Assembly (NCBI GenBank): GCA_947624435.1 | Contig: CANQKE010000002.1 | Span: 1 to 64,000, forward strand | From: an uncultured Ruminiclostridium sp. | GTDB lineage: Bacteria > Bacillota > Clostridia > Oscillospirales > Ruminococcaceae | Direction of reading: 5' to 3' | DNA length: 64,000 nt | Shown here: positions 11,006 through 32,075 of the stretch, in pieces | Numbering within the stretch: the stretch's first letter is position 1 | How the letters are laid out: every line of letters starts with the position of its first letter | The notes under the pieces: generated by a model | What the model was told of the DNA's origin: nothing | Databases searched by the model: none | The model's input: the letters and a program-made list of their open reading frames with translations, nothing else | Program-made: the position numbers and the translations under genes

Positions 11006-11008
11006 TTT

Positions 11009-11395
11009 TTATTCCTCCTCGGTATTGGTTTTTCTTGATTTGTAAATTTCCGCTGTGAAATGGTGGTATCCCAGCAGATAATTCGGGCTTAATGCGCCGT
11101 CGTTTTCAAATTTCTCGACGGTAAACTTGCCGGCGATCTCTTCGAGCATTCTTTCAAAGCGCAGCCCGGTCTTTCTGCCGTACTCGTTTGTTTTGTCGAG
11201 ATACGGAAGCAGCTTTTCCGCGATTATCTTCCATGTTGTCCACGGACGCTGTGAAAAAGCGCTCCAGTATCTGCGGGCGTTTGTTACGCGGCCGCCGTCG
11301 TTCTTTTCGTAAGTGTTGCTTTCAGCCGCGTCTGCGACTGCGAGCAGGCAGCCGTAAAGGTAGCTGCGGTCGGTTTCATTAGGGTCGTAAGCCAT
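11009..11395 (-). CDS. cas11c: Probable internal Cas11c small subunit, from within cas8c
   Basis: Inside cas8c, an in-frame ATG at 11393-11395 (residue 494 of Cas8c) is preceded by GGAAGGAG with an eight-base gap, an unusually good ribosome site for the middle of a gene. Translation from it gives 128 aa beginning MAYDPNETDRSYLYG and mostly helical in appearance. In studied type I-C systems the small subunit Cas11c is made this way, from an internal start near the 3' end of cas8c, and has about this size. The site is seen directly; its use is inferred. Confidence 0.72.
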   Translation of the reverse strand: MAYDPNETDRSYLYGCLLAVADAAESNTYEKNDGGRVTNARRYWSAFSQRPWTTWKIIAEKLLPYLDKTNEYGRKTGLRFERMLEEIAGKFTVEKFENDGALSPNYLLGYHHFTAEIYKSRKTNTEEE

Positions 11396-12874: not shown

Positions 12875-13628
12875 CTGTTCCACCTCCGAAAAATTCGGAC
12901 AAGCCTTCTTCCTCTAGCCCCGTAAAGTTATCGGTATCTTTTCCGAACGGCTTTATCGCCTGCGGTTTGATATGGCGCTTTATCGTGCAATCCTTCGGCG
13001 GGATAAAATCAATAACCCCGTTTACCATGACCGGATTCCAAAAGCGTACCGTAAGCTGTCCCTTGTCCTCCTCGTTTTCTGCTTCGTCGGCGTAGGTTAT
13101 GCCATGGTACATAAGGCTGTAAGGAATCTCTCCCTTACCGTCGTAAAATCCACCGCCCTCTCCGAATTTACACGGCTCAACATAGCCCTGACATTCGCGC
13201 GTACCTAAGAAGATATCACGCCGCCCGCCGCGCTCTATCATTCTTCTGGCGATGGACAAATGTTTTCCGGCGTCGCGGTCGCAGGCTAGCTCGGGGCGGT
13301 TGTAGTTCCACTCGAAATGCGCCTTTACCTGATAGCAGACGTCGTCAAGGTAAGTATAATACGCAAGGTCGTTGCTGCCGTCATTGTATTTGATAGGACG
13401 GACGCCCCTGCGAACCGTTTTTATCTGGTTCATAACACGCACCTTGTCTATTATCCACGTGATGGTCGGTTTCCAATAGGTGCTGTGAAGCACGCCTTTA
13501 ATCGCCTCGTAAGTCGGTATCATGTAAGTACATCGCTCGCCGCCGACCTTTGTAAGAATATCGGTAAACAACGCCGATTCACCGCTCACCTGAAATTCTA
13601 CGCCCCATTCTCCACTGCTTTTTTCCAC
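12858..13628 (-). CDS. cas5c: Cas5c (Cas5d) crRNA-processing nuclease
   Basis: 256 aa from a GTG at 13626-13628, preceded by AAAGGAG seven bases upstream and 13 bases after the cas3 stop. An in-frame ATG at 13667 would overlap cas3 and lacks a ribosome site. Type I-C has no Cas6; Cas5c cuts the pre-crRNA. The expected catalytic GKH motif is present (K122, H123 in AGKHLSIARRMIERG), as are Y40 in PTYEAIKG and the conserved FLGTREC segment. The enzyme should cut at the base of the repeat hairpin. Confidence 0.94.
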   Translation of the reverse strand: MEKSSGEWGVEFQVSGESALFTDILTKVGGERCTYMIPTYEAIKGVLHSTYWKPTITWIIDKVRVMNQIKTVRRGVRPIKYNDGSNDLAYYTYLDDVCYQVKAHFEWNYNRPELACDRDAGKHLSIARRMIERGGRRDIFLGTRECQGYVEPCKFGEGGGFYDGKGEIPYSLMYHGITYADEAENEEDKGQLTVRFWNPVMVNGVIDFIPPKDCTIKRHIKPQAIKPFGKDTDNFTGLEEEGLSEFFGGGTDELGK

Positions 13629-13641
13629 AGTATCACTCCTT

Positions 13642-16392: not shown

Positions 16393-17859
16393 ATGAAATT
16401 AAAAAGAGGCATTGCATTTTTCCTCGCGGCAAGCGCATTAGTTTCCCTATCCGCTTGCTCGTCGGGTACGACGACGGAATCGGCTTCAACTGCTGCAAGC
16501 TCAGACGAATCGTCGATAGACGACGATATCCGCAATCCCGTTGACGTCAGCGATCTCAGCTTAGGCGGCTTAAGTGAAGCGGAGGATATAGAGCCGGCAG
16601 AATTGACCTATCTCGGCAGTTATAATATAACCACCGCCGGAGACGTCAAGCCCGCATACAAATACTTTAATGAAAACTACGACTGCACTATCAAATGCAC
16701 CATCGTAGGCTCGGCGGCGATCACTTCCAGATTGACGACGGCTATAGCGTCCGGTGAATCGCCCGATCTCATCGACTATACCGAAAACGTCTTTCCTCTT
16801 ATGATGTCCAAATCCATGCTTACTCCGCTTGAGGATTACATGGACCTCAGCGCGCCTCAGTGGGCGGGTCTTGAAAGCTATATCAATAAGTATAAATGGG
16901 GCGGCCATAACTATTACTACCCGTGGTCATACAATGTATCCCCGATATTCCTTATGTATAACAGAGGTCTGTTCTCGGAGCTGCATATAGACGACCCCAA
17001 GGATCTTTATGATTCCGGCGATTGGGATTGGGATTCATTTAAGAAGTGTATCCAGGACTTTATGGACAGCGACCCGGACGGAAAGCGTCAGGGACTTTAC
17101 GGGTATACCGCTACCGCTATGTTTGATTCTACCGGCGTTCCGCTTATCGAGATCGGCGAAGACGGTATGCTTAAATCCAACCTTGTAAACCCGAATATTG
17201 AGCGTGCCGCAAACTTCCTCCAGGATCTTAAGAGAGAGGGTCTTGCGCTTTATCCCGAGGGAGATTATATGAATGTTGACGAAGAACCGCTGGTAGAGGG
17301 GCTGTCGGCGTTCCAGGCAATGGGCGAATGGAAATTCGCGGGTTATGCGCAGCGTATGGAGGAGGATCCCTCGCTGGATTTCTTCCTTGTTCCCTTCCCC
17401 AGAGACCCTCAGGCAGATGAGTATTATATCTCAATGTCCACTTTCGGTTATATGGTACCGGCAAACGCTCAGCATGTCGAGCAGGCCGCCGTGTTTATAA
17501 ATTGCTGCCGACTCAGTAAGACCGATGAGGCGCTTATCGAAACCACAAAAGACAGCATTATGGTGGATAAGCATTACAACGAGGAGCAGTACGAATTTAT
17601 CCTCGGCTTCCAGCAGATAGAAAATTATCACCCGGTAGTAGACGAGCCTTACGGAATGGACGACACCACCGCGGAGCTTCTCAGACAGATGATAGACAAC
17701 GTGGTATTCCAGTCAGGTGACGAAACGCTTAACGGCAAGAGCTGGACTCAGATGAGAGAAGAAAACAGCGCCGTTATAGACGCTCAGGTAGCATATTATA
17801 ACGATCTTATCGCGAATAAGAACGGCGTTGCTCCGAGCGATGACACTTCCGAAGCATAA
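16393..17859 (+). CDS. Sugar ABC-transporter substrate-binding lipoprotein (family 1)
   Basis: 488 aa. A type II signal peptide ends in LVSLSAC (C22), followed by a Ser/Thr/Asp-rich linker and an extracellular solute-binding fold. Typical features of family-1 carbohydrate-binding proteins include a GESPDLIDY-type segment and the DWDWDSFK motif near residue 215. It should capture an oligosaccharide or sugar outside the membrane and pass it to an MalFG-like permease. No permease gene lies nearby, so the partners must be elsewhere. It is closely similar along its length to the next gene. The operator upstream suggests sugar control. The substrate is not readable from sequence. Confidence 0.88.
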   Translation: MKLKRGIAFFLAASALVSLSACSSGTTTESASTAASSDESSIDDDIRNPVDVSDLSLGGLSEAEDIEPAELTYLGSYNITTAGDVKPAYKYFNENYDCTIKCTIVGSAAITSRLTTAIASGESPDLIDYTENVFPLMMSKSMLTPLEDYMDLSAPQWAGLESYINKYKWGGHNYYYPWSYNVSPIFLMYNRGLFSELHIDDPKDLYDSGDWDWDSFKKCIQDFMDSDPDGKRQGLYGYTATAMFDSTGVPLIEIGEDGMLKSNLVNPNIERAANFLQDLKREGLALYPEGDYMNVDEEPLVEGLSAFQAMGEWKFAGYAQRMEEDPSLDFFLVPFPRDPQADEYYISMSTFGYMVPANAQHVEQAAVFINCCRLSKTDEALIETTKDSIMVDKHYNEEQYEFILGFQQIENYHPVVDEPYGMDDTTAELLRQMIDNVVFQSGDETLNGKSWTQMREENSAVIDAQVAYYNDLIANKNGVAPSDDTSEA

Positions 17860-17877
17860 AAGCATAAATACGATCAT

Positions 17878-17915
17878 AAACAGAGGGGAGAAAATTCTTC
17901 CCTCTGTTTATTTAT
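17878..17915 (+). terminator. Rho-independent terminator
   Basis: AAACAGAGGG (17878-17887) pairs with CCCTCTGTTT (17900-17909), followed by a T-rich tail. It lies 18 bases after the first binding-protein gene and separates its transcript from the paralogue. Confidence 0.85.
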
Positions 17916-17963
17916 TATGTATTATGCACAAAATAAAGGCGGGTTTTTTAGCTATAATGTTTA

Positions 17964-17992
17964 TTGAACAGGTCAGCTGATTATGATAAAAT
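17964..17992 (+). promoter_or_regulatory. Promoter of the second binding-protein gene
   Basis: TTGAAC (17964-17969), 17 bases, TAAAAT (17987-17992). Unlike the first paralogue, no TGTAAnCGnTTACA operator is seen here, so the two genes may be controlled differently. Confidence 0.6.
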
Positions 17993-18049
17993 ATTTATAT
18001 GAAATGCTTAAAATAGGAGCTTTTTATCAAATTAAAACGGAGGATTAAG

Positions 18050-19471
18050 ATGAAAACCAAAAGAATAATCGCTGCGCTGCTCGCAGTATCTACTCTTGTT
18101 TCTCTTTCCGCATGCTCAAACGGCCAAACCGCTTCTCAGCAGGACGTATCATCAGGAAGCGAATCATCTGTTGACGACGATGAACGCAACCCGGTAGACG
18201 TCAGCGACTTAGAGCTCAGCGGATTGACTCAGGAAGAAGAGATCGAGCCGGTAGAACTTCAGTATCTGGGTGTTTATAACCTTACTACCGCGGGAGACGT
18301 TAAGCCGGCTTACAAATATTTCACGGAGAATTACGGCTGCACCATCAAGCCTACCGTCGTAGGTTCGGGCGCGCTCGCGCAAAGACTTACCGCGATGCTT
18401 TCAAGCGGCGAATCTCCCGACCTTGTCGATTACGCTACCAACACTTTCCCGCTGATGATGTCCAAGAATATGTATACTCCTCTTGAGGATTACATGGACC
18501 TCAGCGCGCCTCAGTGGTCAGGTCTTGAAAGCTATATCAATAAGTACAAGTGGGCAGGTCACAACTATTACTACCCGTGGTCCTACAACGTATCGACACA
18601 GTGGCTTATCTACAACCGCGGACTGTTCAGCGAGCTTCAGATACCCGACCCCAAGGAGCTTTACGATGAGGGCAATTGGGATTGGGACGCTTTCAAATCC
18701 TGCATGCAGGATTTCGTGGATTCCGAAGAAGGAAGAACAGGTCTGTACGGTCAGCTGGGTACCGCTATATTCGATACCACCGGCACTCCCCTTATTTCAA
18801 TATCCGAGGACGGTATGTTACAGTCCAACTTCCAGGATCCTAATATAGAAAGAGCGGCTTCGTTCTATCAGGATCTTAAGAGAGAGGAACTGTGCAAATA
18901 CGCTACCGGCGATTATATCGACATTTCCGAAGAGCCTATAGTAAACGGCTTGTCCGCTTTCCAGGGCATGCAGGAATGGATAATCACCAACTATGCGCAC
19001 AAAATGCAAAAAGACGAATCTCTGGATATCTTCTTTATTCCTTTCCCGAGAGATCCCGATGCAGATAAATATTATATGGGTATGAGCACGTTCGGATATC
19101 TGGTTCCCGCAGGCTCCAAGAACGCAAAGCAGGCTGCGGTGTTTATCAACTGCTGCCGACTGAGCAAGACCGATCCCGCGCTTAAAGCCACCACCACCGA
19201 AAGCATCATGAAGGATAAGGGCTACACCGAAGAACAGTTTGAATTCCTTATCAGCTTCCAGGAGGTAGAGAACTTCGACGCTGTCGTTGACGAGCCTTAC
19301 GGACTGGACGACGCTACCGCAGATATCATCAACACTATGCTGCATGACGTAGCTTTCCCGAGTGACAGCGGTGAAGATCAGAGCTGGACTCAGATGAGAG
19401 AGGCTAATGCAGGCGCTATCCAGGCACAAGTTGATAACTATAACGAGCTTATCAAACAGAGCAACACTTAA
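18050..19471 (+). CDS. Second sugar-binding lipoprotein, paralogue of its neighbour
   Basis: 473 aa with a lipobox LVSLSAC (C22) and the same domain layout as the gene at 16393. Long blocks are shared, such as EDYMDLSAPQW and GHNYYYPWSYNVS, so the two arose by tandem duplication. Differences cluster in the linker and scattered surface positions, which could tune ligand choice. Its own promoter and the terminators on both sides make it a single-gene unit. As with the first copy, no permease or ATPase gene is adjacent. A convergent AraC gene follows. Confidence 0.87.
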   Translation: MKTKRIIAALLAVSTLVSLSACSNGQTASQQDVSSGSESSVDDDERNPVDVSDLELSGLTQEEEIEPVELQYLGVYNLTTAGDVKPAYKYFTENYGCTIKPTVVGSGALAQRLTAMLSSGESPDLVDYATNTFPLMMSKNMYTPLEDYMDLSAPQWSGLESYINKYKWAGHNYYYPWSYNVSTQWLIYNRGLFSELQIPDPKELYDEGNWDWDAFKSCMQDFVDSEEGRTGLYGQLGTAIFDTTGTPLISISEDGMLQSNFQDPNIERAASFYQDLKREELCKYATGDYIDISEEPIVNGLSAFQGMQEWIITNYAHKMQKDESLDIFFIPFPRDPDADKYYMGMSTFGYLVPAGSKNAKQAAVFINCCRLSKTDPALKATTTESIMKDKGYTEEQFEFLISFQEVENFDAVVDEPYGLDDATADIINTMLHDVAFPSDSGEDQSWTQMREANAGAIQAQVDNYNELIKQSNT

Positions 19472-19481
19472 ATGGTATATT

Positions 19482-19513
19482 AAAAACTCCGGTTTTCACG
19501 CCGGAGTTTTTTT
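19482..19513. terminator. Bidirectional terminator shared by convergent genes
   Basis: AAAAACTCCGG and CCGGAGTTTTT form a perfect stem with T-runs on both strands. It ends the second binding-protein gene (plus) and overlaps the last codons of the AraC gene (minus). Confidence 0.9.
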
Positions 19514-20323
19514 ATCGCGGTATTCTGTGGGAGATAATTGTTCTTCATTTTTGAATAACCGCGAAAAATACATAGCGTCCTCAAATCCTACCGAACGTGC
19601 AACAGTGCAAACAGGCAGCTTAGTATTCGCCAGCAGCTTTTTCGCCGCTGTCATTCTAAGTCCGATAAGATACCGCATCGGCGAGATACCCTCGACGCTT
19701 ATAAACGCGCGGTACAGTGTAGTGCGCGAGACTCCGGCAAAATCTGCCGCATCCTTTATGCCGATGTTCATAGCGTAATTGAAATTCATGTAGGTCTGCG
19801 CGCGTCTGACGCAGAGCTCGGCTCGGCTTTGCAGGCCGTTTTTCGCCCTGCTGCGGCTGATGATTATTCCGAGCGTGATATAAAGCTGACCGGTCATTTT
19901 CAGCATATCGGAGGTATGTCTGCCGCTCATATCATAAGCGGCTTTTATACTGTTTTTAAGCTCATCGCCGAAATCGGAGGATATCACCGGATAGTCGCGC
20001 GTGAAATCCGCCGAGGAAAGCAATCGCTCGGCGTCGGAGCCGTTGAAGCCTATCCAGTAATACGACCACGGATCATCCGCGTCGGCGGTATAAGTTATCT
20101 CGGTATTAGGATAGATAAGAAAGGTATCCCCCGCGCTTAGCCGGTAGTCCTTTCCCCCGACGGAATATATCCCGGCGCCGCTTACAATATGATGTATAAG
20201 ATAATGATCCCGCACGCCGCTTCCCCATTTGTGCAGCGGCGCGCATTTTTCATACCCAACGTTATAAACGGACAAGGTCTCGTTTTCCTTGTTGTCCGCC
20301 CTGAAAGAATATTTGTTATCCAT
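19496..20323 (-). CDS. AraC-family transcriptional regulator
   Basis: 275 aa from an ATG at 20321-20323 with GAGGTG seven bases upstream; a longer in-frame start at 20374 has no ribosome site. The N-terminal half is a cupin-like ligand-binding domain (HHIVSGAGIYSVGG, a segment common in sugar-responsive AraC proteins). The C-terminal third has two helix-turn-helix units, including IKDAADFAGVSRTTLYRAF and VARSVGFEDAMYFSRLFK. It faces the binding-protein genes and probably regulates sugar uptake or use, perhaps those genes. A promoter is seen at 20343-20371. Confidence 0.9.
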   Translation of the reverse strand: MDNKYSFRADNKENETLSVYNVGYEKCAPLHKWGSGVRDHYLIHHIVSGAGIYSVGGKDYRLSAGDTFLIYPNTEITYTADADDPWSYYWIGFNGSDAERLLSSADFTRDYPVISSDFGDELKNSIKAAYDMSGRHTSDMLKMTGQLYITLGIIISRSRAKNGLQSRAELCVRRAQTYMNFNYAMNIGIKDAADFAGVSRTTLYRAFISVEGISPMRYLIGLRMTAAKKLLANTKLPVCTVARSVGFEDAMYFSRLFKNEEQLSPTEYRDKKTPA

Positions 20324-21749: not shown

Positions 21750-21777
21750 TTGACAACACGCCAAAAAGTGGTATAAT
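21750..21777 (+). promoter_or_regulatory. Strong promoter of the secreted-protein gene
   Basis: Consensus TTGACA (21750-21755), 16 bases, consensus TATAAT (21772-21777). It is among the best promoters in the window and implies high expression of the 156-aa protein. It is also the only clear promoter for the lipoprotein/ABC genes downstream. Confidence 0.8.
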
Positions 21778-21867
21778 AATTATTAACGAACACAGAAGTT
21801 AATAAGCTTTGAAAATTTTGATCGGCAAATCTAAAAAATCAAAGCTGTTATTCAAAGGAGGAACATC

Positions 21868-22338
21868 ATGAAACTTAAAACTTTAGTGAGATCCGCAGCC
21901 GCTATACTGCTTGCAGCTGCAACATTGGGAGTGTCCACGACCGCATTTGCTACTAATTCCGGAACATCGTACAGCGCATATGTGGACGGAACACAGGTCA
22001 TAACTATCGGCACCAATTTTACCAAGGGTACAAAGTCGTATCATAGTGTTGATCTGAAAACCTATACTTCAATGCCGGAAAACTATATTGCAAATACAAT
22101 AGAAGTTATTTGGTATGGCGTCGATTCGTCCAGCGGCAATAGTGTTGTTACTAGAACCGTTGCAACGGAACATAACACTAATGAGGCATGGGCATTAAAC
22201 AACTACCCATATCAGCTATTTCCTAATAATATAAAATGGACTGCTCGTCACCGTGCCACAAAAAACAACAAAGCGGGAAAAGCTATTGATTTAATCGATA
22301 GATACACCGTAACAGAAACAAAAGCCATGGAAGAATAA
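21868..22338 (+). CDS. Secreted 156-aa protein of unknown function
   Basis: A Sec signal peptide (basic start, hydrophobic core, AFA cleavage near residues 27-29) precedes a mature domain of about 127 aa. The mature part has a beta-rich pattern with few cysteines (none seen) and a basic patch KWTARHRATKNNKAGK near its end. An AAAGGAGG ribosome site and a consensus promoter suggest strong expression. A terminator follows at once, and then the lipoprotein/ABC genes. A highly expressed secreted product ahead of a weaker membrane-protein operon resembles bacteriocin or secreted-effector loci. I do not recognise the family; a superficial likeness to lactococcin-972-type proteins is too weak to claim. 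Confidence 0.75.
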   Translation: MKLKTLVRSAAAILLAAATLGVSTTAFATNSGTSYSAYVDGTQVITIGTNFTKGTKSYHSVDLKTYTSMPENYIANTIEVIWYGVDSSSGNSVVTRTVATEHNTNEAWALNNYPYQLFPNNIKWTARHRATKNNKAGKAIDLIDRYTVTETKAMEE

Positions 22339-22354
22339 GTTTTCCATGTAACAT

Positions 22355-22397
22355 CATGGGCATTTTCAATGGATTTGAAATGCCCATGAAATTTTTT
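22355..22397 (+). terminator. Terminator between the secreted protein and the lipoprotein array
   Basis: CATGGGCATTT (22355-22365) pairs with AAATGCCCATG (22378-22388), followed by a T-run. It sits 16 bases before the first lipoprotein start. No new promoter is visible in between, so downstream genes are probably transcribed by read-through at a lower level. Confidence 0.85.
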
Positions 22398-22413
22398 GTA
22401 AAGGAGCACCACC

Positions 22414-23541
22414 ATGAAATTCAAAAAAAATTTTGCATTGATACTCGCCGTTTCTATGCTCTCCGGTTGCTCAGTGAGAGAAAATTATAGTGAATATATA
22501 TCCGTCCAAAGTGACAGCGTTGAAAGCTCCGCAGATATACCGGATATTTCGATAGATGATCCTTCGATATCAGATGAGATCAGTTTTGACAAAGATTATG
22601 ACCCCGACAAATACTCTATCATGGGAGCTGTCGTTAATTTTGCGGATGATGAAAATATTGAATACAACGGTGAACCTATTACATGTCATGCCTCGGTAAG
22701 CGGAACTAACGGCAACACCGCCGCAATAGAACTTGGAATATCGCTGTTTATAAACGGCTTTCGTCAAGTTATAAGCGTAAACGGCAGCGAACCCACCGAG
22801 ATGTATATAAAAACATACGAGCCTGATCAGGGAGATTTGTTGGAGATAACTTTTGACCCGAAAATTCTCGAAAAGGATAAAGACAAAACTACGATGTATA
22901 TCGATATTATAAAATTCTGGTTTCCTACATATGATGATAAAACATACCATAACGACTTGAAAAGTATACGAGGAGCTTCTTCCGGAGGAAACTCGCCTAT
23001 GTATATAAATACGCCTATAACAAATTATGTATCCGGCGAGCAGGAGCAAATCGAGTTGATAGAAAAAACTCCGCAAAACATGGCAAGCCGCATAATCGGA
23101 TACAGAGAGCCTGGTTCAATAGGAGAAGCTGGTACTTATGTCGATATACAGCCCGCCAAAGATTACCGGGATTATATCACATTTTACGCAAACGACGACA
23201 ACAGCGGAGATATCTCTGTATACTCGGCATTAGAAGATAATATGACCTATCGGGTGACCTTGTTCGGCAAGGACGGAATGCTTATCTTCAACGATGGTAA
23301 AAGCTATCTCGAAATGGAAAACAAAAAGAAAACGCTTTGCTTTGCTGCCGTCAATATACCCGACTTAAAGCCGGACGATTTCATTTACGCGGTGTTCACG
23401 CCGATAAAAAGAGTATTAAAGTACAATGAAGAAGAAGACGGAATGGAAATATTAAACGAATACGGCGAAAAGTATTACGGTACTGCCGTAACAAGCGGTT
23501 TGCTTTATGTTGCAGACCCCGGCTTGAAACAGGAGCAGTAA
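22414..23541 (+). CDS. Array lipoprotein 1
   Basis: 375 aa. Signal peptide with lipobox MLSGC (C19), an acidic Ser-rich linker to about residue 60, then two beta-rich modules. Conserved landmarks across the five paralogues are YNGEP, GTNGNT, EMYIKTY, LEKDKD, the PITN segment, FNDGKSYLEME and NIPDLKP. The protein should sit on the outer face of the membrane. It is close to lipoprotein 5 over most of its body. The ribosome site AAAGGAGCACCACC is repeated almost exactly before genes 2, 4 and 5. No known family was recognised. Confidence 0.85.
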   Translation: MKFKKNFALILAVSMLSGCSVRENYSEYISVQSDSVESSADIPDISIDDPSISDEISFDKDYDPDKYSIMGAVVNFADDENIEYNGEPITCHASVSGTNGNTAAIELGISLFINGFRQVISVNGSEPTEMYIKTYEPDQGDLLEITFDPKILEKDKDKTTMYIDIIKFWFPTYDDKTYHNDLKSIRGASSGGNSPMYINTPITNYVSGEQEQIELIEKTPQNMASRIIGYREPGSIGEAGTYVDIQPAKDYRDYITFYANDDNSGDISVYSALEDNMTYRVTLFGKDGMLIFNDGKSYLEMENKKKTLCFAAVNIPDLKPDDFIYAVFTPIKRVLKYNEEEDGMEILNEYGEKYYGTAVTSGLLYVADPGLKQEQ

Positions 23542-23553
23542 AGGAGCGCCACC

Positions 23554-24684
23554 ATGAAATTCAAAAAAATCGCCGCATTTATCCTAGCCGCTGCACTGCT
23601 CTCCGGCTGTGCGGTGAGAGAGGATTACAGCGAGTATATATCCGAGCCTGTCCAGTCTGTCCAAAGTGACAGTGTTTCGGAAAGCTCCGCAGATATATCT
23701 GATATTTCGATCGATACATCAATATCGGAAGAAAGCAGCGACGACGAGGAAATAAACACTTCAGTTTATGCAGAAAAATATTCCAATTTCGGAGCGATCG
23801 TTAATTTTGAAAACGAAGACAAGATCGAATACAACGGCGGGAATGTTACGGTACCTATATCTGTCGGAGGAACTAACGGCAACACTACTGACTTAGAACT
23901 CGGTATTTTGCTTTGTATAAACGGATTTTGTCAAGAGATAAGTGTAAACGGCAGCGAGCCCACCGATATGTATATAAAAACATACGAGCCTGACCGGGGA
24001 GACTTGCTGGAGATAACCTTTGAACCGAGAATACCCGAAAAGGATAAGGACAAGACGATACTGATATGTAATATTGTCGCTTATTTCTTCCCTACGGTGA
24101 CAGATGAAAAAAACAGCGTTGCGTTAGATCACTCGCGTTCTGTGTCTTTTCACGGTGCAGCCCCGATGTATCTGAACACGCCGATAACCGATTTTATTGA
24201 CGCCGAGCCGGAAGAATTTGAAACGATACCTAAAACAATGTCAACTATCAAGGAAAATATAAATCTTTACGGCGACCCTAATGTAGAAACCGGAAACCCT
24301 GACAGGATCTTCGGCATCCAGCCTTCAAAAAGTGAAGAATATATCAACAAGTTTGTTCTAAACGACGACGGCAGCGGGGATATAACAGTGTACGGCGGAC
24401 TTGAGGACGAACAGCTTTACCGCATAACTCTGTATAAAAAAGGCGGGAAACTGCTTACCTTCAACGGCGGGAAGTCGTATCTTGAAATGGAAATGAAAAA
24501 AGACGAATTATATATGGCCGATCTGAATATACCCGATCTAAAGCCGGGCGATTACGTTAGTGCGTTTTTTACTCCGATAGTTGACGCAACACTCGACGAT
24601 AGAGGTATTGCGGACTTTTCGTATGGAAAATTAGATCAAGGAGCGGCAAGCTGGATAATGTTTGCAGAAGAAAATAAAATTTAA
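23554..24684 (+). CDS. Array lipoprotein 2
   Basis: 376 aa, lipobox LLSGC (C19). The linker (SEYISEPVQSVQSDS) matches that of lipoprotein 5, while the body is the most divergent of the set. It carries the shared EMYIKTY, LEKDKD-like PEKDKD and NIPDLKPGDY landmarks, but the middle and C-terminal ends differ. It starts 12 bases after gene 1. It is presumed to be surface-anchored; function is unknown. Confidence 0.84.
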   Translation: MKFKKIAAFILAAALLSGCAVREDYSEYISEPVQSVQSDSVSESSADISDISIDTSISEESSDDEEINTSVYAEKYSNFGAIVNFENEDKIEYNGGNVTVPISVGGTNGNTTDLELGILLCINGFCQEISVNGSEPTDMYIKTYEPDRGDLLEITFEPRIPEKDKDKTILICNIVAYFFPTVTDEKNSVALDHSRSVSFHGAAPMYLNTPITDFIDAEPEEFETIPKTMSTIKENINLYGDPNVETGNPDRIFGIQPSKSEEYINKFVLNDDGSGDITVYGGLEDEQLYRITLYKKGGKLLTFNGGKSYLEMEMKKDELYMADLNIPDLKPGDYVSAFFTPIVDATLDDRGIADFSYGKLDQGAASWIMFAEENKI

Positions 24685-24702
24685 GACACATAGGGAGGAA
24701 AT

Positions 24703-25821
24703 ATGAAAAAATTATCAGTCGCTGCTCTTTTTCTTATCGCTTCCCTGCTCTCCGGCTGCGCGGTGAGAGACGAAAACAGCAGTCCGACTCCCGAAACACA
24801 GAAGAACGAAAGTGCTCAGTTCAGCTCGACTGAAATTTCCGAATACTCGTCCGACAATCCTACAGATGAAGAAAGCAGCTCGGAAGAATATAATCATGAA
24901 GACCGAGAGAAATATTCAATTCTCGGAGCGACGGTTAATTTTGAATACGAAAATTTTCTTGAGTATAATGGCGAACCTATAAACTTTCAGGCAGTTGTGA
25001 GCAATACCAACGGCAACACCACCGACTTAGAGCTTGGCATATCCATTACTATAAACGGATTTAGGCAGACATTCAGCGTCGACGGCGGAAAGCCGACCGA
25101 GATGTATATAAAAACTTATGCGCCGGGCAGCGGTGATTTGCTGAATATAACTCTTGACCCTCAAATTCTTGAAAAAGATAAAGATGCGGAATTATTAGCT
25201 ATTAATTATGTGGTATTTTGGTTCCCAACTGCTGTTGATAAGCAAAACCCTATTACATTAGACGACGCTCGTCATGTTTCTTTCGATGGTTCTGCAATAA
25301 TGGAGATCAACTCCCCGATAACAAACTTTATAGATGAAAAGCAGGAGGAAAACGTTGAGGTAACTAAGAAAACGCTCAAAAACGAGCGGGAGCTGGTGGG
25401 CGAAAATTATTCCCCCTACTCAAGCGGTGAGGGCAATTTTATTTTAGGTATCGAACCCGCCAATATATCTGAGGAAAACGACAATTTTCTTATCAACGAC
25501 GACGGCAGCGGGGATTTTACGGTGTACGGTGATGTTGAGGACAACAGAAAATACCGCGTTACGATATTTGACCAAAACGGAATGAGAACCTTTAACGACG
25601 GAAAGACCTACCTTGAAATGGAGATGAAAGAGGGCGACCTGTGTTTCAAAAAAGTAAATATTCCTAATCTTAAACCGGGAGATTATATTTACGCACTGTT
25701 TACACCGTTTGATATGGAGGTCGGCTATGACGACGAATACGGAAAGTATTTCACAAATCTTATTACTCGTGCGAATAACGGCATGGCCTCCGATATCCGG
25801 TTCGCTGACAAAGATCAATAA
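24703..25821 (+). CDS. Array lipoprotein 3
   Basis: 372 aa, lipobox LLSGC (C19). Its signal peptide begins MKKLSVAALF, unlike the MK(F/L)KK start of the others, and its ribosome site is a plain GGGAGG. From the linker onward it is nearly the same as lipoprotein 4, including DNA-level identity over the C-terminal half (for example the region 25305-25430). The central module differs more. It is presumed to be surface-anchored with unknown ligand. Confidence 0.84.
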   Translation: MKKLSVAALFLIASLLSGCAVRDENSSPTPETQKNESAQFSSTEISEYSSDNPTDEESSSEEYNHEDREKYSILGATVNFEYENFLEYNGEPINFQAVVSNTNGNTTDLELGISITINGFRQTFSVDGGKPTEMYIKTYAPGSGDLLNITLDPQILEKDKDAELLAINYVVFWFPTAVDKQNPITLDDARHVSFDGSAIMEINSPITNFIDEKQEENVEVTKKTLKNERELVGENYSPYSSGEGNFILGIEPANISEENDNFLINDDGSGDFTVYGDVEDNRKYRVTIFDQNGMRTFNDGKTYLEMEMKEGDLCFKKVNIPNLKPGDYIYALFTPFDMEVGYDDEYGKYFTNLITRANNGMASDIRFADKDQ

Positions 25822-25833
25822 AGGAGCACCACC

Positions 25834-26952
25834 ATGAAATTAAAAAAAATTTTTGCATTGATACTCGCCGCCGCACTGCTTTCCGGCTGTGCGGTGAGAG
25901 ACGAAAACAGCAGTCCGACTCCCGAAACACAGAAGAACGAAAGCGCTCAGTTAAGCTCGACTGAAATTTCCGAATACTCGTCCGACAATCCTACAGATGA
26001 AGAAAGCAGCTCGGAAGAATATTACGAATATGGTATTCAAAAATATTCCTGTATAGGAGCGACTGTAAATTTTGCCGATGATCACATACTTGAATATAAC
26101 GGAGAGCCGATGATATTTCACCTGTCTGTCGGGGGAACAAACGGCAATTCTACCGATTTAGAGCTCGGAATAGCTATCGTTATAAACGGATTTCGGCAGA
26201 TATTCAGCGTCGATGGCGGAGAGCCGACCGAGATGTATATAAAAACATACGAGCCTAATCGCGGAGATTTGCTGGAAATAACGTTAGACCCTCAGATACT
26301 CGAAAAGGACAAAGACGCCGAAATTCTCGCCATTGACGTTATCACCGTATTTTTCCCGACTGCTGTTGATGAACAATATCCGGATACAATAGACGGCGCC
26401 CGTCACGCGTCGTTCAGCGGCGCCATGATAGCCTCTATCAACTCCCCGATAACAAACTTTATAGATGAAAAGCAGGAGGAAAACGTTGAGGTAACTAAGA
26501 AAACGCTCAAAAATGAGCGGGAGCTGGTGGGCGAAAATTATTCCCCATACCCAAGCGGTGAGGGCAATTTTATATTGGGCATCGAACCCGACAACATATC
26601 TGAGGAAAACGATAATTTTCTTCTCAACGAAGACGGCAGCGGGGATTTTACGGTGTACGGCGATGTTGAGGACAACAGAAAATACCGCGTTACAATATTT
26701 GACCAGAACGGAATGAGAACCTTTAATGACGGAAAGACCTACCTTGAAATGGAAATGAAAGAGGGCGACCTGTGCTTCGGAAAGGTAAATATTCCTAATC
26801 TTAAGCCGGGAGATTATATTTACGCACTGTTTACGCCGTTTGATATGGAAGTCGGCTATGATAACGAGCACAGAAAATATTTTACAAACTTTATTACTCG
26901 CGCGAATAACGGCATGGCTTCCGATATCCGGTTCGCTGACAAAAATCAATAA
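25834..26952 (+). CDS. Array lipoprotein 4
   Basis: 372 aa, lipobox LLSGC (C19). It combines the signal peptide and ribosome site of genes 1, 2 and 5 with the linker and C-terminal module of gene 3, so it looks recombinant. The central beta module around residues 65-190 is its own variant. The near-identity of the 3' halves of genes 3 and 4 points to recent duplication or gene conversion. Function is unknown. Confidence 0.84.
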   Translation: MKLKKIFALILAAALLSGCAVRDENSSPTPETQKNESAQLSSTEISEYSSDNPTDEESSSEEYYEYGIQKYSCIGATVNFADDHILEYNGEPMIFHLSVGGTNGNSTDLELGIAIVINGFRQIFSVDGGEPTEMYIKTYEPNRGDLLEITLDPQILEKDKDAEILAIDVITVFFPTAVDEQYPDTIDGARHASFSGAMIASINSPITNFIDEKQEENVEVTKKTLKNERELVGENYSPYPSGEGNFILGIEPDNISEENDNFLLNEDGSGDFTVYGDVEDNRKYRVTIFDQNGMRTFNDGKTYLEMEMKEGDLCFGKVNIPNLKPGDYIYALFTPFDMEVGYDNEHRKYFTNFITRANNGMASDIRFADKNQ

Positions 26953-26964
26953 AGGAGCACCACC

Positions 26965-28089
26965 ATGAAATTAAAAAAAATCACCGCATTGATACTTACC
27001 TCCGCACTGCTCTCCGGCTGTGCGGTAAGAGAGGATTACAGCGAATATATATCCGAGCCTGTCCAGTCTGTCCAAAGTGACAGTATTTCGGAAAGCTCCG
27101 CAGATATACCGGATATTTCTATCGACGATACAACAGATGACGAGATCAGTTTTGACGAAAATTACGACCCAGACAAATACTCTATCATGGGAGCTGTCGT
27201 TAATTTTACGGATGATGAAAACATCGAATACAACGGTGAACCTATTACATGTCATGCCTCGGTAAGCGGAACTAACGGCAACACCGCCGCAATAGAACTT
27301 GGAGTATCGCTGTTTGTAAACGGCTTTCGTCAAGTGATAAGCGTAAACGGCAGCGAACCCACCGAGATGTATATAAAAACATACGAACCTGATCAGGGAG
27401 ACTTGCTGGAAATAACCTTTGACCCGAGGATACTCGAAAAGGATAAAGACGAAACTATGATGTATATTGATATTATAGAATTCTGGTTTCCTACATACGA
27501 GGACGAAACATACCATAACGACTTGAAATATATACGAGGGGCTTCTTCCGGAGGAAACTCACCGATGTATATAAATACGCCTATAACAAATTACGTATCC
27601 GGCGAGCAGGAACAAATCGAGTTGATAGAAAAAACTCCGCAAAACATGGCAAGCCACATAATCGGATACGGAGAGCCGGGTTCGAGCGGATCGTCCGGCA
27701 CTTATATCGGTATACAGCCCGCCAAAGATTACTGGGATGTTCTCAACTTTTACGTAAACGACGACAACAGCGGAGATATCTCCGCATACTCGGCATTAGA
27801 AGATAATATGACCTATCGGGTGACCTTGTTTGGCAAGGACGGAATGCTTACCTTCAACGATGGTAAAAGCTATCTTGAAATGGAAAACAAAAAGAAGACG
27901 CTTTGCTTTGCTGCCGTCAATATACCCGACTTAAAGCCGGACGATTTCATTTACGCGGTGTTCACGCCGATAAAAATGATTATAAAGAGTGATGGAATAT
28001 TCAACGAATACGGCGAAAATTATTACGGTACTACCATGACAAGCAGGTTGCTTTACGTCGCAGACCCCGGCTTGAAACAGGAGCAGTAA
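26965..28089 (+). CDS. Array lipoprotein 5
   Basis: 374 aa, lipobox LLSGC (C19). The linker matches lipoprotein 2 and the body matches lipoprotein 1 almost throughout, again a mosaic. It ends DPGLKQEQ exactly like gene 1. It is 14 bases from the ABC ATPase gene, which places the array and transporter in one operon. Confidence 0.84.
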   Translation: MKLKKITALILTSALLSGCAVREDYSEYISEPVQSVQSDSISESSADIPDISIDDTTDDEISFDENYDPDKYSIMGAVVNFTDDENIEYNGEPITCHASVSGTNGNTAAIELGVSLFVNGFRQVISVNGSEPTEMYIKTYEPDQGDLLEITFDPRILEKDKDETMMYIDIIEFWFPTYEDETYHNDLKYIRGASSGGNSPMYINTPITNYVSGEQEQIELIEKTPQNMASHIIGYGEPGSSGSSGTYIGIQPAKDYWDVLNFYVNDDNSGDISAYSALEDNMTYRVTLFGKDGMLTFNDGKSYLEMENKKKTLCFAAVNIPDLKPDDFIYAVFTPIKMIIKSDGIFNEYGENYYGTTMTSRLLYVADPGLKQEQ

Positions 28090-28103
28090 GAAAGGAACGT
28101 ATC

Positions 28104-28967
28104 ATGGAGCTTAGACTTAACGGGATAACAAAATCCTATACCAAGGGCAAAAAGCACAGGAATGCGCTGGAGGATTTCACCCTCACCATGACCGAGGGGG
28201 TGTACGGTGTTTTAGGTCCTAACGGCGCGGGAAAATCCACGCTAATAAACATCATCACCGGCATAATCTCACGGGACAGCGGCAGCATAGTCTTTGACGA
28301 CAACGGAAATCACGATTATCTGTCCCACCTCGGCTTTATGCCGCAGGGCATGGACTTTTACCGCAACTTTACCGCTAAGGACTATATCAAGTACATAATG
28401 ACGCTTAAAAAGTACAAAACGGCGGACGACAACGCTTATGCGCTTGATATACTCGGCAAGGTGAATCTGCGCGAGGACGCGGACAGGAAAATAGGCGCGT
28501 ATTCCGGCGGAATGAAACAGCGCCTGGGGATAGCACAGGCGATAATCGGAGAGCCTAAAGTGCTTATCTTCGACGAGCCGACGGCGGGACTGGACGCAAA
28601 GGAGCGCATACGCTTTCGCAACGTGATAAGCTCGCTTGCGGCGGACAAGATAGTTATTTTAGCTACCCATATCGTTACGGATATTGCCTATATAGCGAAA
28701 ACCGTCGTGCTTATGGATAAGGGGAAAATAATACAATACGGCACGCAGGAGGAGCTTTGCGCCGACGCCGCGGGCAAGGTTTGGGAGTGCGAGGCGGACA
28801 GTTCCGAGGTCATGGACTGCATGAACAGAATGCGGGTATCCAACGCCGTCAGCACCGGCGGAAAATACACACTTCGCATAATATCCGAGGACTGCCCGAT
28901 GGACGGCGCGGTAAAAGCGGAGCCGTCGCTTGAGGACGTGTGCATTTACCGCTTTGGAGATATGTGA
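28104..28967 (+). CDS. ABC transporter ATP-binding protein
   Basis: 287 aa with Walker A GPNGAGKST (38-46), signature YSGGMKQR (133-140) and Walker B LIFDEP (154-159). The layout is that of BcrA/NatA/LanF-type ATPases, which pair with ABC-2 permeases in export of antibiotics, lantibiotics or lipids, or in self-protection. An AAGGAA ribosome site precedes the ATG. The stop overlaps the ribosome-site region of the permease that follows, so coupling is expected. Confidence 0.95.
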   Translation: MELRLNGITKSYTKGKKHRNALEDFTLTMTEGVYGVLGPNGAGKSTLINIITGIISRDSGSIVFDDNGNHDYLSHLGFMPQGMDFYRNFTAKDYIKYIMTLKKYKTADDNAYALDILGKVNLREDADRKIGAYSGGMKQRLGIAQAIIGEPKVLIFDEPTAGLDAKERIRFRNVISSLAADKIVILATHIVTDIAYIAKTVVLMDKGKIIQYGTQEELCADAAGKVWECEADSSEVMDCMNRMRVSNAVSTGGKYTLRIISEDCPMDGAVKAEPSLEDVCIYRFGDM

Positions 28968-28968
28968 T

Positions 28969-30126
28969 ATGAAGCTGTTTATATACGAGCTTAAGAAAAA
29001 TATTTTCAGAGTGTCGCTGCTTGTCCTGACCGTGATACTTATGGCGGTGAATATCTATAAGGCGATGGAGGAACGGCGCTTTTTCGGAGAAACGCGAGCC
29101 GCCGCCGCTATGACCGACTATTTTGGCGGAGAGCTTAACGAGGAAAAATTTGCCGAGCTTAACGAGTATAGGGCTCGTATGGAGCAGGAGGCAAACGCAA
29201 TTGACGGATCCGAAGAGATAGAGTATGATTATGAGCGTTATATCACCGGAACAGCGGCGGGTGACGCCTCCTATGCCGAATCGGATATAAAGCCTAAGAT
29301 GGAATATGCGTACCTTTACCGCAACACCGTGCTGGACTATCTTGCGCTTGCGGACGAGAACATCGCGTTTTACGACGGTAAAAACAGCTATGAAACGAGC
29401 TATGCGCAGCTTGCAAAGCAGCTTTACAGCGGCAGGATAATAAAATCCCTCGGGCAGTACAACACGCCGAGATTATATTTCGATTACGAGTTTTCCACGC
29501 TTGCGGTGATAATACTGGTGATATTTGTTTTCTCCTCGGCGTTTTCTTCCGAGCGGGCGACCGGCACCGACAGGATAATAATTTCAAATAAGCGCTCCGG
29601 CTCGGTATTCTGGGCTAAGCATTTCACGCTGTATCTGTTTGCCGCCGCCGCGGTGATACTGTTCAGCGTTTCGGACATTATCGTTTTTGCGCAAAAGTAC
29701 GGTATAGGCACGCTCGACCAGCCGCTTTTTGCGATACAGGAATATCAGTTCACGCCGCTGAACGTCACGGTGCTGGGCGTTATGCTGATAACGCTTGTTT
29801 TAAGGATATTAGCGGTGCTGTTTGTCGGCGAGGTAATAATGGTCGTCTCCACCGTTACCAAAAACATCGGCGCATGTATAGCGCTTTCGTTCGGCGTTGT
29901 AGGAGCGCTGGTGTTGATAAGCGAGTTTATAGACCCGTATCTTTCTCCGATAAACCTTGTCAACACGCGCAGCATGTTCAAAAATCTTGACTGCTATGAT
30001 ATTTTCGGAACGGCTGTTCCCTGCCAGCTGATAACGCTGCTTATCGCTGTTGTGCTTATCTTGGCATTGCATGTAATATGCTACCTGCGCGCTGTACCGA
30101 AACGGCTTAAGGAGGCGGACAAATGA
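28969..30126 (+). CDS. ABC-2 type permease
   Basis: 385 aa from the ATG at 28969, which has GGAG about nine bases upstream and lies one base after the ATPase stop; a longer in-frame start lies within the ATPase gene. It has one N-terminal membrane segment (about 12-28), a soluble loop of roughly 150 residues, then five or six segments after residue 170. This is the usual ABC-2 layout with a large external loop. Both permeases begin MKLF(I/L)YELKK, so they are paralogous halves of one channel. It overlaps the next gene by four bases (ATGA). Confidence 0.88.
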   Translation: MKLFIYELKKNIFRVSLLVLTVILMAVNIYKAMEERRFFGETRAAAAMTDYFGGELNEEKFAELNEYRARMEQEANAIDGSEEIEYDYERYITGTAAGDASYAESDIKPKMEYAYLYRNTVLDYLALADENIAFYDGKNSYETSYAQLAKQLYSGRIIKSLGQYNTPRLYFDYEFSTLAVIILVIFVFSSAFSSERATGTDRIIISNKRSGSVFWAKHFTLYLFAAAAVILFSVSDIIVFAQKYGIGTLDQPLFAIQEYQFTPLNVTVLGVMLITLVLRILAVLFVGEVIMVVSTVTKNIGACIALSFGVVGALVLISEFIDPYLSPINLVNTRSMFKNLDCYDIFGTAVPCQLITLLIAVVLILALHVICYLRAVPKRLKEADK

Positions 30127-32015
30127 AACTGTTTCTTTATGAGCTTAAAAAAATAGCGCTTAAACAGTACGCGCTGTTTATCTTCTTAGCGGTCATAGTT
30201 GTGCAGTTGTTCTCGCTCACCTATGATAAAGGGCTTACATACGGGCTTGCCACCGAGACGGAGCGCAGCGAGTATCTTGAAACTATCCGCCCTCTCACCG
30301 GAAAGCTTAACGAGGAAAAAGAAAACATCATCATAGCAATGAAAGATGAGCTTATGCAGGCTCAGCAGGAGGAAGCCGAGATATACGACGCCTATACGAA
30401 CTGGGAATGCACCGCCGATGAGCTTAATCAAACTATAGACAGCATTAAGCCGATACTGGACAAAGAGGACATAACCGAGGCGATAACGGCACAGTATGAT
30501 TACGTCTGCGAGGATAAGGAGCACCGCGTTATACTCCCCTCCTCCGCTATACCGATAATGGACAACGATCCTATAAATTATCTTATGCTATTGGCGGTGA
30601 TATTCTGCTGTGCTTATGCCGTTATGGCGGAAAGCAGCACAAAGGGCGACCTTATGCTCAGAACTACCCCGAACGGTCAGCGCGTAACGATGGGCGCAAA
30701 GCTGATAATACTTGCGCTTTTGATAACCGTCACAAGCGTGATACTGTCCTGCGTCGATCTGATACAGCTTTCGCGGCAGCTCCCGCTCGAATACTGGGAG
30801 TATGACCTTTGTTCGCTTGCAAGATACGAATGTACGCCGTTTGATATCAGCATAATATGGGGATTTTTCTCGGTGCAGCTGCTTAAGCTTACCGGTTATC
30901 TCTTTATCGGCGCTGCGGCGATGCTCACGGCGTTTTTCACTAAAAGCTACCCCGCGTCGGTATTCCCGTACATAGCTATACCGGTAGCCGCCGATTACGT
31001 CGCGGAGGGCAAGGGGCAATCCTACTACCTGCCCACCGGACTTATAAAGGGGTACGGCTATCTTTACGGCAACGTCGGTTATTATGAGCAGACGGGACTT
31101 GCAGAGTTTTACGGTATACCGGTCTATTATACCACCGCTGTCGTGATATTCTCGGTCGCTTTCATCGCGGCGGCGTCCGTGATCATGATAGGCTTCAGCG
31201 CAAACCGCCTTAAAAAGCTAAAACACGGCGCTAAAAAAGCCGCGCTGCTCGCCTCGGTCATGGTGCTGTTGCTCAGCGGCTGCTCACAGCAGCAGAATGT
31301 TATATATAACGGTATCGTTTCTATAATAGACGGCGCTACGGAAAACAGCAGGTACACGTTTGCGATAAAGGATACTACCCCTTGGGATCAGGAAGGCGGA
31401 TATGACGGACTGCCTATCTTTCTCATAACCTATACCGATAAGGAAAGCGGGCAGGTTTACGAGATACCGAGATCCTTGCACGGGACTATTTCGATGAACA
31501 GCCAGCTTTTCGCCACTGAAAATTACCTTTACTACAGCGGAATGAATTTAGAGGACGACGAACAGTATATAGAGCGGATAAACCTCAGTGATATGTCACG
31601 GGAAAGGATATATACCATCGGCAGCGGCGAGGTGCGCTCGGCGTTCGGGCTTACCATCGACTATGACGAAGAAACTATGATACTCAGCATAAAAGAAGTT
31701 TTTTCCAACGACAAGGAATTGTTCTTTACCGACCACATGGGCAGAGTTTTTTCGGTGGACGCCTTTAAGAACCGTCGCTGCATAATCGAAGAAAACACCA
31801 AAAACGGCCTGTTCTTTGACGGGGAGAATATCTGTTACGTTACCGAAAAGCTGCGGCTTATGAGATATAACATCTCCTCCGGAAAGACCGATTCGCTGTA
31901 TGACGCTCCCATCGATCCGGATTCCCTTGCGGTGGAAAACGGGCTGCTGCATTTTGAAACGAATGGTAAAAAATACGCTGTAAATATTTCCGACTTAAGT
32001 ATTGCCGAAGAGTGA
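30123..32015 (+). CDS. ABC-2 permease fused to a lipoprotein-like domain
   Basis: 630 aa. Residues 1-360 form an ABC-2 permease like the preceding gene. A basic stretch at 361-372 leads into a hydrophobic segment ending LLLSGC (C387), which looks like a complete lipoprotein signal sequence in mid-protein. Residues 388-630 form a beta-rich soluble domain with repeated blades (LYYSGMNL, LFFTDHMGRVFSV, GLFFDGENICYV) resembling a propeller or DUF5050-type sensor. The likely origin is fusion of a permease gene with a lipoprotein gene that lost its start. The topology puts the C-terminal domain outside if segment seven crosses the membrane. The reading frame is uninterrupted. Confidence 0.85.
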   Translation: MKLFLYELKKIALKQYALFIFLAVIVVQLFSLTYDKGLTYGLATETERSEYLETIRPLTGKLNEEKENIIIAMKDELMQAQQEEAEIYDAYTNWECTADELNQTIDSIKPILDKEDITEAITAQYDYVCEDKEHRVILPSSAIPIMDNDPINYLMLLAVIFCCAYAVMAESSTKGDLMLRTTPNGQRVTMGAKLIILALLITVTSVILSCVDLIQLSRQLPLEYWEYDLCSLARYECTPFDISIIWGFFSVQLLKLTGYLFIGAAAMLTAFFTKSYPASVFPYIAIPVAADYVAEGKGQSYYLPTGLIKGYGYLYGNVGYYEQTGLAEFYGIPVYYTTAVVIFSVAFIAAASVIMIGFSANRLKKLKHGAKKAALLASVMVLLLSGCSQQQNVIYNGIVSIIDGATENSRYTFAIKDTTPWDQEGGYDGLPIFLITYTDKESGQVYEIPRSLHGTISMNSQLFATENYLYYSGMNLEDDEQYIERINLSDMSRERIYTIGSGEVRSAFGLTIDYDEETMILSIKEVFSNDKELFFTDHMGRVFSVDAFKNRRCIIEENTKNGLFFDGENICYVTEKLRLMRYNISSGKTDSLYDAPIDPDSLAVENGLLHFETNGKKYAVNISDLSIAEE

Positions 32016-32040
32016 TGAAATTCTCACGATAGATAACGAA

Positions 32041-32070
32041 AATCCCCCGATTTTAATCAATCGGGGGATT
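32041..32070. terminator. Bidirectional terminator between convergent operons
   Basis: AATCCCCCGATT and AATCGGGGGATT form a perfect 12-bp stem. It ends the lipoprotein/ABC operon (plus) and the spoVA operon (minus), whose stop codon is six bases away. Confidence 0.85.
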
Positions 32071-32075
32071 TAATG

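Follow-up and report, generated by a model that had tools for sequence, protein, structure and literature searches.

A candidate secreted antagonist encoded with five lipoproteins and an ABC transporter in an uncultured Ruminiclostridium

In lantibiotic loci, LanI and LanFEG (NisI and NisFEG) comprise one or more lipoproteins, one ATPase and two permeases of an ATP-binding cassette (ABC) transporter, encoded in one operon near the secreted antimicrobial, and LanF carries an E-loop in place of the Q-loop. Lactococcin 972-type loci encode a Sec-secreted, unmodified bacteriocin with a beta-sandwich fold and have ABC genes nearby, and YtrBCDEF and SigY-YxlCDEFG of Bacillus subtilis are ABC operons that respond to envelope stress or are tied to an extracytoplasmic function (ECF) sigma factor. 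Here we analyzed a 64,000-nt stretch of contig CANQKE010000002.1 from an uncultured Ruminiclostridium (the window, to which window coordinates refer), where a feature set spanning 21750-32071, all on the + strand, consists in the open reading frame (ORF) map of a promoter, a secreted protein (SP156), a hairpin, five lipoproteins (LP1-LP5), an ABC ATPase, two permeases (P1 and P2) and a second hairpin. We cautiously favor, with a little less than even confidence, the reading that SP156 is a protein antagonist accompanied by a lipoprotein/ABC protection module.

Compared with LanFEG, the window ATPase scored 148.6 bits on the lantibiotic-protection model TIGR03740, below its cut-off of 309.75, and scored higher on the GldA (170.1 bits) and DrrA (153.9 bits) models. 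It has a canonical Q-loop where LanF has an E-loop; moreover, the presumed substrate here is a folded protein 103-127 residues long, and one permease has an extra domain. Membership in the lantibiotic immunity systems was dropped on account of the Q-loop and the score below the model cut-off, and no lantibiotic precursor or modification genes were noticed in the gene maps, in which no search was aimed at them. Like lactococcin 972 loci, the window combines a protein bearing a Sec-type signal peptide with nearby ABC genes. Lactococcin_972 (PF09683) was matched by none of nine SP156-like proteins (SPs; 11 are known), each tested alone with an E limit of 1 or 5, P1 and P2 did not match bact_immun_7tm, and membership in this group was dropped for want of a Pfam match. 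To our knowledge, the two Bacillus operons, likened here by description only, lack an SP, a bank of lipoproteins and a fused permease like those of the window. The TMcin locus of Gram-positives also encodes a secreted bacteriocin with ABC subunits, but it relies on a metalloprotease and its peptide contains a transmembrane helix, and in the part of its description available to us no lipoprotein bank is mentioned (PMC12328743). In open-licence papers we found no description of the window gene set, most subscription papers lying outside this coverage. The ATPase is the sole protein of the set over a Pfam or NCBIfam cut-off (PF00005, 94.3 bits), and the proposal of an undescribed locus in the first-pass annotation, made from the DNA letters before this analysis, is supported.

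SP156 belongs to a family whose genes are tied to lipoprotein genes. Searches covered 71 genomes of the genus, 396 of the family and an order-level sample of 295. As a single query, SP156 found relatives of 30% identity in two of the 71 genomes (G001 and G053), and a three-row profile added three further SPs, one in G001 and two in G050. All five of these context-free relatives lie directly upstream of a gene of the LP family, which supports the proposal that the secreted protein is tied to the lipoprotein and ABC genes in the relatives that have it. Further SPs were recognized by inspecting small secreted ORFs near lipoprotein genes in the source genome (contig C35), G032 (two), G054 and G060. 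A ten-row profile of the mature region found 11 places in 7 of the 71 genomes at E <1e-10, all in loci already mapped; it was trained on context-found members, so that the context-free evidence is that of the SP156 and three-row searches only. Weak matches to the mature-region profile occurred in G008 and G048, and among the 396 family genomes three were matched, all of this genus. A full-length profile matched 78 of the 396 genomes at E <=0.01, with strong matches (six, in three genomes) that were all known SPs; the remainder lay mostly on the signal peptide, and the mature region was used for later profiles for this reason. The next gene after the SP carries the lipoprotein domain LP-A, described below, in 9 of the 11 cases (nine loci), and in G050 SP-lipoprotein pairs occur twice in tandem, with gaps of 7 and 11 bp.

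The signal peptides of the SPs were assigned as Sec-type by eye, without a predictor. Ten mature SPs were measured; they are hydrophilic, 103-127 aa long, and have isoelectric points of 4.4-9.1. In a six-row alignment of this fast-diverging family, two residues never vary, a C-terminal histidine and the asparagine five positions after it. None of the SPs tested reached a cut-off in Pfam or NCBIfam, many of the weak matches lying in signal peptides; a match to a known family, which the first-pass annotation had named as contrary evidence, did not appear, and a plasmid search with two SPs gave no match.

The promoter ahead of SP156 matches the extended -10 consensus at 12 of 12 positions (TTGACA-16-TATAAT, with TG before the -10). 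It is the best of 35 sites scoring at least 9/12, and shuffled sequences gave 22.0 +/- 4.2 such sites. The hairpin that follows SP156, at about 22354-22389, leads into a run of T residues; its predicted folding energy is -20.1 kcal/mol, and with its T run it abuts the LP1 ribosome-binding site; it probably acts as an attenuating terminator. Both elements had been called in the first-pass annotation, and both were recovered here, the hairpin without being listed by the terminator scan, whose model permits no bulge. Separately, the SP genes of three species have 5' leaders that resemble one another and contain two small inverted repeats (in L044, GACAGC...GCTGTC and GCTC...GAGC), although the SPs differ (L044 6100-6277, L047 2560-2742, L046 10638-10840 and L063 9977-10180).

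Downstream, the set is as tight and co-directional as first proposed, with its ORFs at the expected places (Table 1). The intergenic gaps are 12 (LP1-LP2), 18 (LP2-LP3), 12 (LP3-LP4), 12 (LP4-LP5), 14 (LP5-ABC) and 1 bp (ABC-P1), the P1 and P2 genes overlap by 4 bp, and the ATG at 28969 (385 aa) was preferred as the P1 start over a TTG start (398-aa ORF). LSGC ends the signal peptide in all five lipoproteins. Their description as mosaic was confirmed by codon-aligned DNA identity in 40-codon windows, which ranged over 76-97% for LP1/LP5 and 67-96% for LP3/LP4 and swung between 38 and 92% for LP2/LP5 (92% in the first window, 88% in the fourth and 38-68% in the other eight). Nothing exceeded a cut-off in Pfam, NCBIfam or PADLOC for the lipoproteins, P1 or P2; PADLOC gave a single marginal match for LP5 (orphan methyltransferase, E 0.015), nothing for three SPs, P1 and P2, and generic ATPase matches for the ABC protein only.

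The lipoproteins share the LP-A domain of about 300 aa, which occurs as a free lipoprotein, as the front half of lipoproteins of about 700 aa and as the ectodomain of membrane proteins. The back half of such a protein in contig C35 of the source genome (LP-B) has relatives in some, but not all, other large lipoproteins. Six LP-A membrane proteins, in which a single span comes after some 40-60 N-terminal residues, were found (two each in L053 and L055, one each in L056 and L072), all six behind a gene of the sigma-70 family at distances from a 4-bp overlap to 18 bp; four of these sigma genes were checked by Pfam and the two of L055 were assigned by similarity only. From this position and layout we infer that they are anti-sigma factors, and none of the three tested matched an anti-sigma family. 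The four loci that contain them have no SP. The LP-A proteins of L061 and L079, also considered as anti-sigma candidates, were dropped, as their starts had been miscalled and the lipobox lies further in.

The ATPase and permeases have the layout of an ABC-2-type exporter, namely an ABC ATPase with two multi-span permeases (seven spans in P1 and five in P2 by a simple hydropathy count), and neither permease matched any ABC-2 model in Pfam or NCBIfam. When the window set is compared with two diverged sets, ATPase identity is 77-83%, whereas that of SPs, lipoproteins and permeases is 27-43%. The Q-loop of the ATPase reads GFMPQGMDF in the window, L064, L044 and L061, and the Q is also present in L045, L130 and L132. 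Five sets (L049, L052, L054, L066 in contig C1 of the source genome, and the second set of L058) have no ATPase between lipoprotein and P1, the gap being 1-45 bp, and the match of L049 to L044 skips only the ATPase stretch; because of these five sets, we consider that the ATPase could be shared. P2 is a permease followed, after a lipobox-like LSGC, by a C-terminal domain that is present in many of its relatives, and the lipobox-like cysteine is kept in each of the 12 domain-bearing P2 proteins that were aligned. Perhaps this internal lipobox is cut by signal peptidase II. The lipoprotein-fused permease of the first-pass annotation is not peculiar to this locus, the fusion being a trait of the P2 family. 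In G026 (L053) and G034 (L055), P2 lacks the domain, which is encoded instead as six separate proteins of 254-267 aa, three of them with a lipobox by pattern; one copy matched DUF5050 weakly (E 0.0005, under the cut-off).

To describe the core in related genomes, we mapped 41 stretches (40 fetched plus the window), picked at lipoprotein or P2 matches with weak ones included, some of which share a contig. At E <=0.001, LP5 relatives occur in 16 and P2 relatives in 23 of the 71 genus genomes, the weakest of the latter including P1-like permeases. In 26 of the 41 stretches, LP-A is encoded together with P1, P2 or both. The order lipoprotein-ATPase-P1-P2 recurs across loci, the commonest LP-A copy number is five (the window, and at least five in the sister species), and the genes are linked in relatives, as a check proposed at the outset had asked; in L045, L060, L065 and L068 the lipoproteins are placed after the permeases. 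The source genome has four related sets in all, in the window and in contigs C35 (L064), C1 (L066) and C55 (L065). In the order-level sample, P1 matches were found in 40 of 295 genomes at E <=1e-10, and of 20 loci fetched at P1 matches, some of the same genus, 8 (L129-L136) encode LP-A. The 15 loci of named relatives come from assemblies of uncultured Ruminiclostridium or Clostridia, several of which originate from the guts of deer, goat and, by name, rabbit. By these comparisons the lipoprotein-ATPase-permease core is a widespread family, commoner than the SPs and often without one. Elsewhere in G001, a 159-aa secreted protein lies between the lipoproteins of a more distant ABC set (L142 4743-5222).

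Comparisons between close relatives show that the SP is a separable part of the locus. In the sister species G069, galE is 99% identical and the locus has 89% DNA identity up to the promoter; the match passes the promoter and then jumps to the lipoprotein ribosome-binding site, with SP156 and the terminator absent, so the conserved promoter leads straight into a lipoprotein gene. A mature-region profile found no SP in the G069 genome. The proposed linkage of these genes in relatives stands for the remainder of the set, the SP alone being missing from the sister locus. G069 has at least five lipoprotein genes, two of them incomplete; two of its contig ends were considered as pieces of one lipoprotein gene, which was dropped since their overlap is 85% identical over 47 bases. 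In the next closest genomes by galE, G036 and G065, DNA homology with the window extends no further than the galE stop codon, with only about 1.5 kb seen beyond galE in G036 and the contig ending at galE in G065. SP156 may have been gained in the window or lost in G069. Between G001 and G053, the block from about 100 bp upstream of the SP through the lipoprotein, ABC, P1 and P2 genes is 97% identical and the regulators upstream differ, namely a sigma gene, a DUF4367 protein and a 134-aa secreted protein in G001 and a LytTR/GHKL two-component system in G053. G054 carries lipoprotein and permease genes of the G001/G053 type without that SP and without an ATPase, its P2 having an internal stop, and has another SP elsewhere (L077); it may be losing such sets. 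In another G054 set, P2 is split into two ORFs of 139 and 481 aa (L078 3057-4931).

Quorum-sensing genes adjoin two sister loci, which fits the bacteriocin-like layout suggested by the first-pass annotation. In contig C35 of the source genome (L064) the order is LytTR regulator (agrA), GHKL kinase (agrC), AgrD, SP, lipoprotein, ATPase, P1 and P2, the AgrD scoring 34.3 bits on TIGR04223 (cut-off 19), and the gene for an AgrB lies apart from this locus, at one edge of contig C31 of the same genome. In G060 (L082), an assembly listed with 7% contamination, the order is AgrB (PF04647, 94.3 bits, cut by the stretch edge), AgrD, SP, lipoprotein, ATPase, P1 and P2. LytTR regulators were found in four of nine SP loci, one as a fragment, and also in two loci without an SP. 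A parallel agr unit in L082 (4162-6041) has a second AgrD before a 201-aa secreted protein, CHAP-like by eye and without a Pfam match, and then a lipoprotein. Another type of small secreted protein (134-159 aa) lies behind sigma genes in L044 (5791-6195), L048 (1716-2126) and L074 (3995-4474); the first two lie next to sets of the family described here, and the one in L074 matches LMxysn_1693 weakly, under the cut-off.

Gene content, signals, linkage, the gain or loss of SPs and the agr and sigma neighbors are seen in the sequences. The linkage of the SPs to a core that does not need them, their pairing with lipoproteins, predicted strong and separate expression, fast divergence and agr neighbors are features expected of a secreted antagonist with protection genes. 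In the mechanism that we propose, SP156 would be made from the strong promoter, exported by Sec and released, and the hairpin before LP1 would let fewer transcripts into the protection genes. The lipoproteins, on the outer membrane face, would bind SP-type proteins of the cell itself or of rivals, and the ATPase, P1 and P2 would use ATP to keep the bound protein off its membrane or wall target, a role modelled on lantibiotic immunity lipoproteins and transporters. Five diverged lipoproteins could widen the range of SP variants tolerated. At high cell density, agr quorum sensing would activate the sets of the sister loci, and in some SP-free loci the sigma factor with its LP-A anti-sigma-like protein would induce protection when a rival's protein arrives; the sister species would have kept protection after losing the weapon, or the window gained the weapon. 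From the sequences we infer antagonism, binding, protection, the direction of transport, anti-sigma function and attenuation alike. A bolder form of this proposal, which we consider doubtful, is a new genus-level family of folded Sec-secreted bacteriocins in which immunity is provided by a variable lipoprotein bank, a shared ATPase and a lipobox-bearing permease, with agr-switched producers and with non-producers alerted by anti-sigma factors that reuse the recognition domain of the lipoproteins.

Several observations weigh against an antagonist. Only 7 of the 26 core-bearing stretches (9 of all 41) have an SP, and because many cores have none, the core apparently can work without it. In G060 the lipoprotein encoded next after the SP is not of the LP-A kind, and one G032 SP (L059, 625-1020) lies at the far end of its cluster with no lipoprotein gene after it. 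With their hydrophilic mature regions and wide range of isoelectric points, the SPs are, by composition, unlike membrane-active cationic peptides. The ratio of nonsynonymous to synonymous substitution rates is 0.16-0.33 in the 7 of 10 window lipoprotein pairs for which it was computable, so that, averaged over the genes, the lipoproteins look to be under purifying selection and show no positive selection of the arms-race type. The ORF map has no agr gene next to the window set, sigma genes lie near the SP loci L044 and L046, L044 also having a DUF4367 anti-sigma-like neighbor, and regulation evidently does not split cleanly by SP presence. A non-toxic small secreted protein beside a transporter also has a precedent in Bacillus YxeA.

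The findings above also fit a defensive module in which the SP is a harmless helper, a reading that we consider nearly as plausible. Here the lipoproteins and ABC proteins would detect and remove membrane- or wall-active antimicrobials from other microbes or the host, and the SP would be a non-toxic decoy, drug-binding protein or signal. The fact that the core mostly occurs without an SP agrees with such envelope protection, and the presence of LP-A in anti-sigma-like proteins implies that an external ligand is sensed. Second ABC ATPase genes and multi-span membrane proteins, MacB-like by eye, lie beside the cores of L048, L052, L061 and L063 (one such membrane protein tested had no Pfam match), and a more distant relative, L131, adjoins an OmpR-type two-component system. 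The ABC operon YtrBCDEF of Bacillus subtilis is reported to be induced by inhibitors of the lipid II cycle. However, an envelope module alone leaves unexplained the diversity of the SPs, their pairing with lipoproteins, the agr placement in two loci and the perfect promoter of the window.

A surface binding set, in which the lipoproteins would be adhesive or would bind glycans or nutrients, the SP would be a released binder and the ABC proteins would help in assembly or uptake, appears improbable. In clostridia, the use of polysaccharides is controlled by anti-sigma proteins whose ectodomains sense the substrate, a precedent in its favor, and sugar-type solute-binding proteins are encoded upstream (16393-19471). 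Comparisons with the PDB point the same way but are insignificant, nothing falling under E 0.05: the sole match of the SP profile to PDB sequences was an adhesin chain (E 0.26), and with PDB profiles the lipoproteins matched best a colonization factor (E 1.2) and P1 a glycan-binding protein (E 2), P2 also giving nothing under that threshold. The adhesin set suggested earlier thus found no support in that lone adhesin match. No carbohydrate, adhesin or solute-binding family exceeded its cut-off for the SPs or lipoproteins, the window set has no separate periplasmic-type importer parts, and the ATPase fits best with the exporter-type models GldA and DrrA. That the transporter is a dedicated exporter of the SP, as also first suggested, is very improbable despite the gene order and the linkage of SP and ABC genes, because the SPs have their own Sec-type signal peptides, judged by eye, and the transporter is kept where the SP is absent.

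Table 1. Features of the SP156 locus in the 64,000-nt window
Feature	Position	Strand	Basis
Promoter TTGACA-16-TATAAT, extended -10	21750..21777	+	motif scan; kept in sister species
SP156, Sec-type secreted 156-aa protein, undescribed family	21868..22338	+	
Hairpin + T run between SP156 and LP1, probable attenuating terminator	22354..22397	+	
LP1 lipoprotein, 375 aa, LP-A domain	22414..23541	+	
LP2 lipoprotein, 376 aa, LP-A domain	23554..24684	+	
LP3 lipoprotein, 372 aa, LP-A domain	24703..25821	+	
LP4 lipoprotein, 372 aa, LP-A domain	25834..26952	+	
LP5 lipoprotein, 374 aa, LP-A domain	26965..28089	+	
ABC ATPase, 287 aa, canonical Q-loop	28104..28967	+	
P1, ABC-2-like permease, 385 aa	28969..30126	+	
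P2, ABC-2-like permease fused to C-terminal domain, 630 aa	30123..32015	+	
P2 C-terminal domain behind lipobox-like LSGC, DUF5050-like at best	31272..32015 (start approximate)	+	
Terminator-like hairpin ending the set	32040..32071	+	terminator scan

The set is flanked by galE upstream, named from its sequence without a family search, and by spoVA genes downstream on the opposite strand. Further upstream (16393-20323), the two adjacent genes of the sugar-type solute-binding lipoproteins are followed by an opposed gene for an AraC-type regulator. The positions 507-7994 and 8464-15987 hold an array of clustered regularly interspaced short palindromic repeats beside type I-C-like cas genes (Cas1, Cas4, Cas7, Csd1, Cas5 and Cas3 by Pfam); the 24-base core of the repeat occurs in 110 exact copies spaced 66-70 bases apart, except for one gap of 202 bases.

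Gut clostridia related to the source carry many such sets, yet the tested SP, lipoprotein and permease proteins reach no Pfam or NCBIfam cut-off. The lipobox-bearing permease and the ATPase-free sets invite clear questions on the architecture and sharing of ABC transporters. If SP156 is a secreted antagonist with its own protection module, this would open a class of gut protein antagonists with matching protection genes, and quorum sensing and anti-sigma sensing would be handles on that class.

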